Part shown: positions 23,757 to 30,715 of the stretch, piece by piece
How positions within the stretch are numbered: the stretch's first letter is position 1
Layout: each line of letters opens with the position of its first letter
DNA from: Pseudomonadota bacterium
Lineage (GTDB): Bacteria; Pseudomonadota; Gammaproteobacteria; JAADHS01
DNA length: 64,000 bases
NCBI GenBank assembly: GCA_021821045.1
Contig: JAKACW010000004.1
Coordinates: 1 to 64,000 of the forward strand
Reading direction: 5' to 3'
Notes under the pieces: model-generated
Database searches by the model: none
Told to the model about the DNA's origin: nothing
Seen by the model: the letters and a program-made list of their open reading frames with translations, nothing else
Translations under genes and position numbers: made by a program

Positions 23757-23869
23757 CATTGCGGTTGAAACCGCTCCCACAAAGGAGGAGGAGCGGATTC
23801 ATCCGCGATTCGACTCGGCACCAATTAGACGTCAGGCTGAGAATCGCGGTAGGAAACCGCTCCCACGGC
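23757..23869. repeat. Cluster of three REP-like units
   Basis: Three related imperfect palindromes lie in the gap between two convergent genes: 23757-23785 (plus, GCGGTTGAAACCGCTCCCAC), 23785-23811 (inverted) and 23841-23869 (plus). The last shares 26 identical bases with 61088-61113. Alternating orientation is typical of REP/BIME elements spread by REP-associated transposases, and the core resembles the common pseudomonad REP. They may also act as hairpins at the ends of both transcripts. Confidence 0.85.
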
Positions 23870-23871
23870 AA

Positions 23872-24966: not shown

Positions 24967-25432
24967 AGGCTGGCTCGTTCGGTGTACTACTTATCGCACC
25001 TGGCGAGGGCGTCGATCCTGCGACTGCCCAAACCGCTTTCGTTGTCGTTATCCGGTAATGGGACGCCCATTATGCCATGACCCTATCACGAAAGAAAATG
25101 GATCGTTGCCGTGTTCCGTCGACACGGCGCCGTACCATCGCGCTCGATTCGCAAGGCCTGCGCGAGCACTCGGTGACAGTCACATCGGGGCAGAATAGGC
25201 CGCGCAACGCGACAACATAATCCACCTTCGCATGTCTGCCGTGACAGGATCGATAAACCTCGGGAACCACCCAATTCCCGTACGAAAATGCATGCGTAAT
25301 CAATGCGTAAAATTCCGTGTTCTTACTTATAGCCCGGCGTTGACAAAAGCGTTTAGAGTCATTGCTCAATCTGGCGCCAGGGATACCCGTGCCGGGTCTG
25401 GGGAGAGCAGGACAGAACAAAGGGGGACTCTT
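24967..25432. other. Divergent promoter region of the NAS-like operon
   Basis: This is a 466-base gap between the porin-like gene (leftward) and the di-iron oxidase operon (rightward). Features seen are a direct repeat ATGCGTAA at 25292 and 25303 (11 bases apart) and a consensus -35 box TTGACA at 25340-25345 without a clear -10. Short frames on either strand have no recognisable content. No Fur-type or Zur-type palindrome was found by eye. Confidence 0.5.
25292..25310 (+). repeat. Direct repeat upstream of the NAS-like operon
   Basis: The 8-mer ATGCGTAA occurs twice, separated by TCA, giving an 11-base period, about one helical turn. It lies 30 bases before a TTGACA element and about 125 bases before the first start codon, so an activator binding as a head-to-tail dimer is possible. 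Its GCGTAAT core equals the weakest unit of the pstS Pho array, but the match to the Pho consensus is poor. Confidence 0.45.
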
Positions 25433-26167
25433 ATGCACCACGCCACCGCGTTGCGCAAGCAGTACATCAATTGGGAATTCCGTAAACAACTCGAAGACGC
25501 CTTACACAGTCACAGCACCATCGATCATCCGCTGCTGGGCGAACTCGCCAAGCCCGAAAGAAACAACACGCTCATCCGACTCATCGCCCTTCAAGGCTAT
25601 CAGCTGACCATCAACTTCGCTTGGTATGTCGGATCGCTTTACCGCTACTGCCCGCTGGCCTATTACCGCAAGCGGCTGGCGATCAACTTGTACGAAGAAG
25701 AAACCGGCAAACTGTCCAAGACCGCGAACCATGAAGTGTTGATGCAACGCTTCATCCGCGCCCTTGGCATTACCGATGAGGAACGCGACTCCGCGGTTGC
25801 GCTTCCGGAAACCAAAGATCTCATCGACTATCGCTGGAACTTGGTCGACAACCCGAAAACCTTTCACATGGGCGCCGCCGCCATCATGATCGCCAGCGAA
25901 GGTCAGAACCTGGAAGAAAAGGCCGGCAAAGCGCGCCATGAAATGTTGCCGAGAGTCTACAACCTCAAGCCGGAAGATCTCGCTTTCTTCTCGGTACACG
26001 CCGTCGAAGACGTCTATCACGTCCGCGAGGGTCTCGACTTGGTGTCCGAGATTTGCACAACGCCGCAGATGCAGGCAGAGGCCCTCGAGGCCGTCCACGG
26101 CACCTGCGAACGCTTTTGGCGCTTTTATGATGGCATTCAGCGGGAATACAACCGGCTCACCAAGTAA
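25433..26167 (+). CDS. Heme-oxygenase-like di-iron oxidase
   Basis: This 244-residue, nearly all-helical protein fits the iron-containing redox enzyme (HDO) branch of the TenA/PqqC fold. Probable metal ligands are one of E88-E90 (NLYEEETG), H100 (NHEVLMQRF), E156 (ASEG), and H189, D193 and H196 (FFSVHAVEDVYH). Known HDOs oxidise small carboxylic or amino acids by desaturation, C-C cleavage or N-oxygenation; the substrate here is unknown. The ATG at 25433 has AAGGGGGA upstream, which rules out the longer open frame. It is first in a three-gene operon. Confidence 0.85.
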   Translation: MHHATALRKQYINWEFRKQLEDALHSHSTIDHPLLGELAKPERNNTLIRLIALQGYQLTINFAWYVGSLYRYCPLAYYRKRLAINLYEEETGKLSKTANHEVLMQRFIRALGITDEERDSAVALPETKDLIDYRWNLVDNPKTFHMGAAAIMIASEGQNLEEKAGKARHEMLPRVYNLKPEDLAFFSVHAVEDVYHVREGLDLVSEICTTPQMQAEALEAVHGTCERFWRFYDGIQREYNRLTK

Positions 26168-26238
26168 CGCAATCCCGGTGTAATACGAGACTTCAGCGAC
26201 GCGACATAAATCGCCGCACAGCGGCACTAGGGGGAAGC

Positions 26239-27084
26239 ATGTACGTCGAAACATTACCGGCTCAAAATCTTTCCGTTCCAGGTTTGAGCGCAAGGCTCGG
26301 CCACAAAGCCGACAATCTCGCGACCATCGTCCGCGACATTCGCCGGCGATTGGATGGCAGCATCGGGGATTTCCCCCAGATGCACATGGCCATGAGAGAC
26401 CTGGAACGGTTGCTGCTTCGCGGCGATGAATACCGCGACGAATTCAACCGCCTGTTGAAGATGTTTCCCGCCCACGAGATGGATCACTTCAACAATCTCT
26501 ATTGCTATTGGGAAACACAACTGGAGAAACGCTTTGTCCAGCATCTGGAGCAAGGCGTTTGCCGTCATGTGGTCGACTATCCTCTGTACGCCCGGTTCGA
26601 GCGACTCATCGAACGGGAAGTCAGTCTGTTGGATGGCTATCAGCCGCGACGACTGCTGTTCATCGGTAGTGGGCCGATGCCGATCACCGCGTTCTGCATG
26701 CAGCACCGCATCGACGCGCCCGTGGACTGCCTGGAGCGCTCGCCAGAAGCGGTGGCCGAATCGCGCTCCGTCATCGACATCCTGGGATTCCGCGACAAAA
26801 TCCGGGTCATCACCGGTTTGGGCGAATCCGTCGATGTCGAAGACTATGACGTCGTCCTTGTCGCGCTGCTGGCCAAGCCGAAAAAGCTGATTCTGGAAAA
26901 CCTGCTGCGCACCTGTCGTCGGGACGTCAAGATCATTTGTCGCACGTCTGAGGGCTCGCGCTGTTTCGTTTACGAACCCACGACCACGGACGACATTCCC
27001 AAGAGTTTGAAGGTCGTCAGAACGGAGCGCGCCGGCATTGACGACACCATTTCGTCCAGCCTGCTAATCCGATCCAACAGCTAA
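26239..27084 (+). CDS. Nicotianamine-synthase-like protein
   Basis: The 281-residue protein resembles the nicotianamine synthase family: a helical N-terminal domain (1-125), then a Rossmann SAM-binding domain with FIGSGPMPIT at 141-150, close to the GSGPLPLT motif of plant and archaeal enzymes. Members move the aminocarboxypropyl group of SAM, not its methyl group, to an amine. Related bacterial enzymes (CntL) make staphylopine-type metallophores. No CntK or CntM partner is adjacent. A strong ribosome-binding site (AGGGGGA) precedes the ATG. It lies 71 bases after the oxidase gene and 13 before the acyltransferase gene. Confidence 0.8.
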   Translation: MYVETLPAQNLSVPGLSARLGHKADNLATIVRDIRRRLDGSIGDFPQMHMAMRDLERLLLRGDEYRDEFNRLLKMFPAHEMDHFNNLYCYWETQLEKRFVQHLEQGVCRHVVDYPLYARFERLIEREVSLLDGYQPRRLLFIGSGPMPITAFCMQHRIDAPVDCLERSPEAVAESRSVIDILGFRDKIRVITGLGESVDVEDYDVVLVALLAKPKKLILENLLRTCRRDVKIICRTSEGSRCFVYEPTTTDDIPKSLKVVRTERAGIDDTISSSLLIRSNS

Positions 27085-27097
27085 ACCGCGGAGCGCT

Positions 27098-27724
27098 ATG
27101 AGTCCCTACGCCACAACCGAAACTTCTGCTCCACGCGCCAGGCCGCTCAGCGGTCTGGCCAAACCCATCCGTCTAGAGTGGGTGAGGGAGTTTCCCCAGC
27201 CGCTGCAGGAAGAAGTCCTCGCCCTGATGAATGCGGTGCTGGCACGGGAGACGACCATCGGTTTCGCGGGCCCGCTCACCTACAACGAGGGCATGCGCTG
27301 GATGGCGGGAACCGCCCGCGCCGTCGCCAACGGCGACAAACATCTGCTGCTGTTTCGAGACACCGACGACAAGGTGGTCGGCCACGTGCTCATGACGCCG
27401 AATGCCCTGCCGAACTGCCGTCATATCGGCGAAATCTCGCGCACATTCGTCCATCCCGACTACCGCGGGGTCAGCATTGTTCGCATGGGCTTGCGCTCGG
27501 TCCTCGATCGCGCCGACCAGATCGGTCTCGAAGTGATTCAACTCGACGTGCGCGACGGAACGCGCATCGCCAAGCTGTGGCAGGCGCTGGGATTTCAAGT
27601 CGTCGGCAAAATGGAAGATTACGCCCGGGTGAACGGCGAATCCTTTCCCGGCCTGTTCATGTACCAACACGTCAAGGTACTGCGCCAGCGGCTGGAACGA
27701 ACGGCGGACGATACACTTTCGTAG
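27098..27724 (+). CDS. GNAT family N-acyltransferase
   Basis: This 208-residue protein has a GNAT fold: HLLLFRDTDDKVVGHVLM (strands 2-4), RTFVHPDYRGVSIVRMGL (acyl-CoA loop), and the C-terminal strand with AKLWQALGFQVVG. The pyrophosphate loop lacks the second Gly of the usual R-x-x-G-x-G/A, so the donor may be atypical. It follows the nicotianamine-synthase-like gene by 13 bases, suggesting it acylates an amine of the same pathway. Self-protection by acetylation is an alternative. Confidence 0.85.
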   Translation: MSPYATTETSAPRARPLSGLAKPIRLEWVREFPQPLQEEVLALMNAVLARETTIGFAGPLTYNEGMRWMAGTARAVANGDKHLLLFRDTDDKVVGHVLMTPNALPNCRHIGEISRTFVHPDYRGVSIVRMGLRSVLDRADQIGLEVIQLDVRDGTRIAKLWQALGFQVVGKMEDYARVNGESFPGLFMYQHVKVLRQRLERTADDTLS

Positions 27725-29386: not shown

Positions 29387-30715
29387 ATGAAATCGCCTCG
29401 CGTTGAACCATCCGACCGCCGCCGAATTCTGTTGCTGGCGACGCCGGTGATGCTCGCCATGGGATCGCAGAATCTCGTCAATCTGATCGACATCCTTATG
29501 GTCAGCCGACTCGGCGAGGCCGCCCTGGCGGCGGTAGGTCTCGGCTCGTTTCTGATTTTCACCCTCCAGGCGCTTACCCTGGGCGCGGCGACGGGCGTAC
29601 AGACCCTCACCGCCCGGCTGCATGGCGCGCAGGCGTCGGCAACCCTGTGCGTTCCCTTGGTCAACGCGCTTGCGCTTGCCGTCATTCTGCTGCCCGCGGT
29701 TTCCCTGGTCTTGTTCGCCATTGCTCCCTTGGCGCTGCGAGAAATGCACGCAGACGCTGTAGTCGTGAGCCATACCACCGACTACGCCCAAGCGCGCATC
29801 TGGTCGCTCACCTTCATCGCCGCCAACTTCGCCTTTCGCGGTTTCTTTACGGCCCAGGACCAAGCCCGCGTCTTCCTGTATGTCATGGGCGCCATGCATC
29901 TCACCAACATCGTTTTGAACTATGGGCTGATCTTCGGCCATTTCGGCTTGCCCGCCCTGGGCGTCGCCGGCGCCGGTTGGGCGACCACGCTGTCGGCCGC
30001 ACTGGGCAGCGGGGTTTACGTTTATCTGACTCGCCGTCAGTTGCAGAGCGTCTTGCGACAATGGCGCGCGCAGTGGACGCCACTGCTTACCATTGCCCTG
30101 CCCTACAGCCTGCAGCAGTTTCTGATCACGCTGGGCGCCGCCGCGTTGCTGTGGATTATCGGCCAGTTGGGCACTTCCGCCCTCGCCGCCGGGACGGTGG
30201 TGATGAATCTGATGCTGCTGGCGATCCTGCCTGCCATCGGCATCGGCATCGCGACGGCTTCGTTGGTGAGCCAGTCCGTCGGCGCGGGGGAGCCGGCCCG
30301 CGCCGCCTATTGGGTGCATGAAACCCTTAAACTCGGCACGCTGGTGCTCGGCTGCGTCGGCGCGCCGCTATGGCTGCTGCCCAATACCATCGCCGCCCTA
30401 TTCATCGCCGACCCCGCGACGCTCGCATTGACCGAATGGCCACTCCGCATCGTCGGCATGGGCATGATTTTCGAAGCCAGTGGACTGGTGCTCTTGCACG
30501 CGCTGTATAGCACCGGCCGTTCACGCCACGCGTTGGCCGTAACAACCGGTTTGCAGTGGCTGGTGTTCCTGCCGGCAGCGTACCTGCTCGGCCCGGCACT
30601 CGGCCTCGGCCTCGGCCTGACCTCCATCATGACCGCCTATGTCGTTTACCGCGCCGCTCTGGCCGCGACCCTGTGGCTGGTTTGGCGCCGTCGCCCCAAC
30701 CCGCATCCTACCTAG
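29387..30715 (+). CDS. MATE family efflux transporter
   Basis: This 442-residue membrane protein has twelve predicted helices in two related halves, the layout of Na+ or H+ coupled MATE/DinF exporters. The first half contains GSQNLVNLIDILMVSRLGEAALAAVGL and the second TLGAAALLWIIGQLGTSALAAGTVVMN, both at the family's conserved positions. The cargo is unknown. It is transcribed away from the M20 peptidase and toward the 2OG oxygenase gene 55 bases downstream; it could export the product of the operon at 25433, but this is only inferred. Confidence 0.88.
   Translation: MKSPRVEPSDRRRILLLATPVMLAMGSQNLVNLIDILMVSRLGEAALAAVGLGSFLIFTLQALTLGAATGVQTLTARLHGAQASATLCVPLVNALALAVILLPAVSLVLFAIAPLALREMHADAVVVSHTTDYAQARIWSLTFIAANFAFRGFFTAQDQARVFLYVMGAMHLTNIVLNYGLIFGHFGLPALGVAGAGWATTLSAALGSGVYVYLTRRQLQSVLRQWRAQWTPLLTIALPYSLQQFLITLGAAALLWIIGQLGTSALAAGTVVMNLMLLAILPAIGIGIATASLVSQSVGAGEPARAAYWVHETLKLGTLVLGCVGAPLWLLPNTIAALFIADPATLALTEWPLRIVGMGMIFEASGLVLLHALYSTGRSRHALAVTTGLQWLVFLPAAYLLGPALGLGLGLTSIMTAYVVYRAALAATLWLVWRRRPNPHPT

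Follow-up and report, generated by a model that had tools for sequence, protein, structure and literature searches.

Analysis of a 64,000-nucleotide stretch (the window) of contig JAKACW010000004.1, from the gammaproteobacterial assembly GCA_021821045.1, revealed three consecutive genes on the forward strand that probably build, oxidize and acetylate an unusual small amino acid. The genes encode a heme-oxygenase-like di-metal oxidase (HDO), a predicted S-adenosylmethionine (SAM) aminobutyryl transferase resembling nicotianamine synthase (NAS), and a GNAT acetyltransferase. We hold with moderate confidence that this trio is a small biosynthetic operon in which the NAS-like protein adds an aminobutyryl group to a nucleophile, the HDO oxidizes the product, the GNAT N-acetylates it and an MFS transporter exports it. 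We regard the trio as one version of a wider operon that combines GNAT, HDO and MFS genes with a gene for a pyridoxal 5'-phosphate (PLP) enzyme, which an earlier interpretation made from the DNA letters (the sequence-only reading) had overlooked. As that reading had supposed, no system with this trio appears to have been described; the open-licence literature yielded no account of either the trio or the wider operon, which is weak evidence of novelty, and what is new is a recurring arrangement of familiar enzyme families. If correct, the proposal would give NAS-type chemistry a role outside metallophores, would show the SAM and O-acylhomoserine routes to one C4 unit to be naturally interchangeable, and would define an HDO pathway that is both compact and widespread, with Pseudomonas and Streptomyces among its tractable hosts. 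Its prediction that two unrelated enzymes yield the same intermediate is directly testable.

Scanning the genome_contigs collection with the window HDO and a second HDO from the same host (contig C23) identified 24 HDO loci, at 50-69% identity, in Pseudomonadota, Actinomycetota, Bacteroidota, Planctomycetota and Cyanobacteriota. A homolog of the window GNAT was present in the same gene group as the HDO in all 24 loci and was its direct neighbor in 22; at two Streptomyces loci, GNAT and HDO were parted solely by PLP enzyme and acyltransferase genes. Also common were an MFS gene (21 of 24), a PLP-dependent gamma-substitution enzyme of the Cys/Met family (21 of 24) and a GlxA/AraC-type regulator (about 17). 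The PLP enzyme was nearest to O-succinylhomoserine sulfhydrylase, and each of the three actinobacterial loci added a homoserine O-succinyltransferase. The complete trio recurred twice. In a locus from a cyanobacterial metagenome-assembled genome (MAG; L049), HDO, NAS and GNAT form one open frame of 744 residues with Pfam matches to all three, followed by an MFS gene, and in a planctomycete MAG (L051) the three genes lie side by side. No further trios were detected in searches of genomes related to that of the planctomycete (199) or the cyanobacterium (119). A third locus, L067, encodes GNAT and PLP enzyme in a single frame; the fusion partners of GNAT thus include NAS in one lineage and the PLP enzyme in a different one. 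With the window included, HDO and GNAT were joined by a gamma-substituting PLP enzyme, NAS or (in one locus, L050) an SbnA-like enzyme in 25 of 25 loci. The trio is a real recurring gene set, not a chance neighborhood, and the fusion and the planctomycete neighbors show that it is conserved in relatives, contrary to the refuting outcome that the sequence-only reading had named.

The distribution of NAS and the PLP enzyme revealed mutual exclusion. NAS homologs (45-46% identical to the window protein) occurred in only two of the 24 loci, L049 and L051, both of which lack the PLP enzyme; among all 25 loci, the four without it were the three NAS carriers and L050. The probability that all NAS carriers fall among the PLP-less loci is P = 0.0017 if the 25 loci are independent, a value to be taken as a guide only because the loci are related. 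In a tree of HDO sequences, the window, C23 and L049 proteins separated from the other 23 (support 98/100), and L051 grouped with PLP-type loci, placing the NAS association on two branches. We consider NAS a non-orthologous replacement, because the PLP enzyme would perform the equivalent step in most relatives. SbnA, for its part, uses O-phosphoserine as donor. We infer that NAS (from SAM), the PLP class (from O-acylhomoserine) and SbnA each join an amino-carboxy-alkyl unit to a nucleophile, and their shared position next to HDO and GNAT is the main reason for the first step that we propose. Known members of the PLP class, LolC, Fub7, CndF and Mur24, link a C4 amino acid moiety to nucleophiles; published enzymes of this class work through a vinylglycine ketimine, to which they couple diverse nucleophiles, proline being the one proposed for LolC (PMC10367076). 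The sister operons carry uncharacterized members of the same class where the window has NAS; unlike the LolC class, the window enzyme is predicted to be SAM-dependent and PLP-free.

The enzyme families, folds, metal ligands, recurrence of the gene set, fusion and mutual exclusion are observed; the chemistry that follows, with its sequence of steps, its nucleophile and its biological role, is inferred. The NAS-like protein would move the 3-amino-3-carboxypropyl (aminobutyryl) group from SAM to a nucleophile, probably an amine, with release of methylthioadenosine and with E96 as the likely general base; in the sister operons, the PLP enzyme would carry out the equivalent step from O-acylhomoserine. 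Using O2 and its di-metal site, the HDO would then oxidize the product, with desaturation, N-oxygenation or cleavage of a C-N or C-C bond as possible outcomes. The GNAT would N-acetylate the result, by comparison with the tabtoxin resistance protein, for self-protection or to give a prodrug or export form, and the MFS transporter would export the acetylated product. More tentatively, the trio and its sister operons may represent an undescribed natural-product pathway spanning five phyla, with interchangeable donors (PLP enzyme with O-succinylhomoserine, or NAS with SAM) and, as product, a novel amino acid that might act as a toxic antimetabolite.

The gene arrangement put forward in the sequence-only reading was confirmed. 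The HDO gene (25433..26167, 244 aa), the NAS-like gene (26239..27084, 281 aa) and the GNAT gene (27098..27724, 208 aa) follow one another on the forward strand with gaps of 71 bases (26168-26238) and 13 bases (27085-27097), and purine-rich ribosome-binding sites precede all three ATGs (AAAGGGGGA, AGGGGGAA and GCGGAGC, respectively). A longer HDO open reading frame begins at 25232; the start at 25433 is favored because of homolog length and the ribosome-binding site. Third-position GC of the trio (0.72-0.75) is like that of adjoining housekeeping genes. No promoter, terminator or Rfam element near the trio exceeded chance expectation.

Several lines of evidence place the second protein with NAS rather than with ordinary methyltransferases, in agreement with the sequence-only reading; the outcome named there as refuting, a best structural match to an ordinary methyltransferase, did not occur. 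It matched PF03059 at 7e-18 (65.4 bits, compared with 70.6 for the L051 and 62.5 for the L049 protein; cut-off 27.1), and the NAS motif GSGPMPIT occupies residues 143-150. A profile search gave 1.1e-31, in line with aminobutyrate transferases, and a phmmer search of the PDB returned the archaeal thermonicotianamine synthase MtNAS as best match (2.8e-21) and the staphylopine D-His aminobutanoyltransferase CntL at 6e-5. For the AlphaFold2 (AF2) model (pLDDT 80.6), the best Foldseek match was MtNAS (1.2e-16), followed by CntL; ranks 1-12 were all MtNAS or CntL (TM about 0.63-0.77), with ordinary methyltransferases from rank 13. The catalytic Glu of MtNAS, E81 (AtNAS1 E77), which is Gln in the PDB chains annotated E81Q, corresponds in the alignment to E96, a residue invariant in the three trio members. 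The protein thus shares with MtNAS and CntL the PF03059 fold, the SAM site, the GxGPxP motif and the catalytic Glu, at structural-alignment identities of 24% and 16-17%, respectively; unlike them, it lacks metallophore partner genes and instead has HDO and GNAT as neighbors or fusion partners. It also has Phe120 where MtNAS has Tyr107. Because of that replacement, we file it as a NAS-like superfamily member and not as a nicotianamine synthase, and it scored only 22.8 bits against the CntL equivalog NF033601 (cut-off 350). With this protein alone as query, close relatives were absent from genome_contigs, viral_contigs and plasmids, and about 820 genome searches within the class and phylum gave remote matches only; those weak PF03059 matches in the class that were inspected mostly resemble CheR-type methyltransferases. 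Two other loci encode NAS-related proteins. One (L022 7652-8464, genome G119) is 27% identical and appears to belong to an uncharacterized natural-product locus, in a cluster whose other genes read as ketosynthase, phosphopantetheinyl transferase, adenylate-forming, ATP-grasp and NAT. The other (L024 7131-7907, genome G574) lies far nearer the PF03059 profile (2e-49) and, with neighbors that read by eye as a Fur/Zur-like regulator, a peptide-type ABC transporter and MFS genes, is likely a bacterial nicotianamine-type metallophore locus.

The HDO likewise proved to have the complete ligand set that had been assigned to it. It matched PF14518 (1e-18, above the curated cut-off), and alignment to CADD, its nearest solved relative by both sequence and fold, placed all six metal ligands (E89, H100, E156, H189, D193 and H196), which are invariant in 26 relatives. 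The AF2 model (pLDDT 90.5) has the fold of the superfamily and matched CtCADD best (9.7e-9), then PqqC, UndA, HrmI, BesC and PolF. The all-helical fold and the E,H,E,H,D,H ligands are shared with the p-aminobenzoate (pABA) synthases CADD and NePabS and with UndA, BesC, HrmI, PolF and MboA. The sacrificial Tyr27 and Lys152 are described for CADD (PMC11965152). In contrast, the position of Tyr27 is Leu35 in the window HDO and Leu, Val or Phe, never Tyr, among the 26 relatives; the position of Tyr43 is never Tyr; and that of Lys152 is Arg168, invariant in all 26. Lacking the sacrificial Tyr, the second Tyr and the Lys of CADD and NePabS, and having the invariant Arg168 and an ALQGYQLT motif, the protein belongs to the HDO family but not to the CADD-type pABA synthases (TIGR04305 score 83 bits; cut-off 200), and its sequence marks it as a new subfamily next to CADD. 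HDOs are known to desaturate, cleave, N-oxygenate or cyclize amino acids (PMC13185094). A search of plasmids with the HDO gave zero matches. The Acinetobacter protective factor DtpC, also an HDO, was considered as a parallel and set aside; its partner is katE, not genes of this trio.

The GNAT matched PF00583 (2.6e-9; 37.8 bits, cut-off 20.7) and, as previously noted from its sequence, has an atypical CoA loop: YRGVSIV departs from the consensus Q/R-x-x-G-x-G/A, a feature partly common to the whole family. A family profile built from 24 sequences was nearest in the PDB to the tabtoxin resistance protein of Pseudomonas syringae (1ghe; 1.4e-16), which acetylates the toxin to give self-immunity (PMC4964394). 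Both are single-domain acetyltransferases, but the two are remote in sequence, the P-loop of the trio GNAT is partly canonical and no tabtoxin genes were seen beside the trio. The GNAT is unlikely to make an O-acyl donor, because it is kept with both NAS and the PLP enzyme.

Several observations weigh against the proposed biosynthetic operon. Both E77 and Y106 of AtNAS1 are essential (PMC10248798), and a catalytic role has been proposed for the corresponding Tyr107 of MtNAS; this position is Phe in all three trio members (F120), and the activity or nucleophile of the NAS-like protein may therefore differ. CntL likewise lacks a Tyr at the aligned position, so the residue is not universal. The NAS-bearing loci number three, two of them MAG contigs, the probability given for mutual exclusion ignores shared ancestry, and NAS in the branch of the window and L049 may reflect a single ancestral event. 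The window lacks an adjacent MFS or regulator gene. In favor of the proposal, the host does encode an MFS about 50% identical to the one that follows the L049 fusion, and nearer to it than to any other cluster MFS; it lies on another contig, unlinked to the trio and beside genes read as methylcitrate-type, and may have a different function. The similarity to the tabtoxin resistance protein is remote in sequence, and several amino-acid or diamine acetyltransferases also match the GNAT, more weakly.

A more specific form of the biosynthetic proposal, which we consider unlikely, is that the end product is a heteroatom-substituted antimetabolite of the vinylglycine type, with the HDO desaturating C-beta/C-gamma and the GNAT protecting the producer. 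The similarity of the GNAT to a toxin-resistance acetyltransferase is consistent with this idea, as are the Streptomyces versions (L064 5619-9884 and L061), which adjoin genes for DIT1_PvcA, a family-less 482-aa protein and an Asp aminotransferase, with a SARP-like regulator (assigned from its sequence rather than from a family search), and so resemble a secondary-metabolite cluster. The HDO MboA provides a precedent for C-beta/C-gamma desaturation in the side chain of an amino acid (PMC13185094), but its substrate is a peptide and a redox partner is required; moreover, the formylaminooxyvinylglycine (FVG; gvg) cluster, in the published description consulted, shows no HDO.

Less probable still is that the HDO acts in the stead of SbnB, oxidatively cleaving an N-(aminocarboxyalkyl) amino acid to 2,4-diaminobutyrate (2,3-diaminopropionate in L050), which the GNAT would acetylate. 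This idea draws on L050, in which an SbnA-like enzyme (TIGR03945 319.6 bits, below the 349.95 cut-off) is paired with HDO and GNAT, SbnB is absent from the 8-kb contig and a nonribosomal peptide synthetase gene lies downstream, and on the fact that glutamate is the nucleophile for both MtNAS and SbnA. On the other hand, diaminobutyrate is normally made by a simple transaminase, an HDO of this kind has no known precedent and the L050 contig is short.

The sequence-only reading had favored an acylated aminobutyrate or azetidine compound that might chelate metal. The acylated aminobutyryl product is supported, whereas a metallophore or azetidine pathway appears improbable. NAS and CntL relatives produce metallophores, and NAS itself forms the azetidine ring of nicotianamine; in addition, the GNAT Mpr1 acetylates azetidine-2-carboxylate (PMC4964394). 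However, beside the trio we found no opine dehydrogenase or histidine-racemase-type partner gene, as that reading had also observed, and no TonB receptor, metal importer or metal regulator, in contrast to the regulator and ABC transporter genes that flank the NAS relative in G574; the suggestion of metal chelation thus finds no support in the neighborhood. Azetidine formation is disfavored because a PLP enzyme, which holds the alpha-amine of its substrate as an imine, cannot easily close such a ring, and its presence in the same place in most relatives argues for intermolecular transfer. The azetidine-2-carboxylate synthases AzeJ/VioH were rejected as counterparts: the AzeJ motifs FY, PFNxxGN and RxxYYxxC (PMC11794875) do not occur in the window sequence, as read by eye.

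Equally doubtful is a catabolic or detoxifying operon for a gamma-substituted amino acid, with the PLP enzyme as gamma-lyase and the MFS as importer. The PLP family does include methionine gamma-lyases, and AraC/DJ-1 regulators of the FtrA/GbdR kind often govern catabolism, but building steps are present, in that NAS would consume SAM and homoserine O-succinyltransferase would make a donor, and the L049 fusion joins NAS to HDO and GNAT. Finally, although CADD is the nearest solved relative of the HDO, a self-sacrificing pABA synthase with the other genes as bystanders is very improbable given the replaced Tyr27, Tyr43 and Lys152 equivalents, the low TIGR04305 score and the constant association with GNAT.

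Elsewhere in the host, the second HDO on contig C23 (L043 1612-2382) is 71% identical to the window HDO and has no NAS or GNAT alongside; it faces a pcm-like gene in convergent orientation, and a NitT/TauT-type ABC transporter is encoded nearby. A more distant HDO on contig C72 (L044 8089-11780) lies beside genes read as GH3-like adenylate-forming and KASIII-like, which suggests a separate small cluster. The closest host PLP homolog (52%; contig C116), which its neighbors suggest is a housekeeping metZ, was rejected as an operon member. Within the window, a MATE gene (29387-30715), 1.7 kb downstream of the GNAT gene, may or may not serve the trio. A dispersed repeat of about 77 bases is present at 23790-23871, with some 50 partial copies over the host genome, partly in tandem (C19, C10 and C133, the last at 100.6-101 kb), and a 25-base piece of it lies about 12 bases past the HDO paralog on C23.
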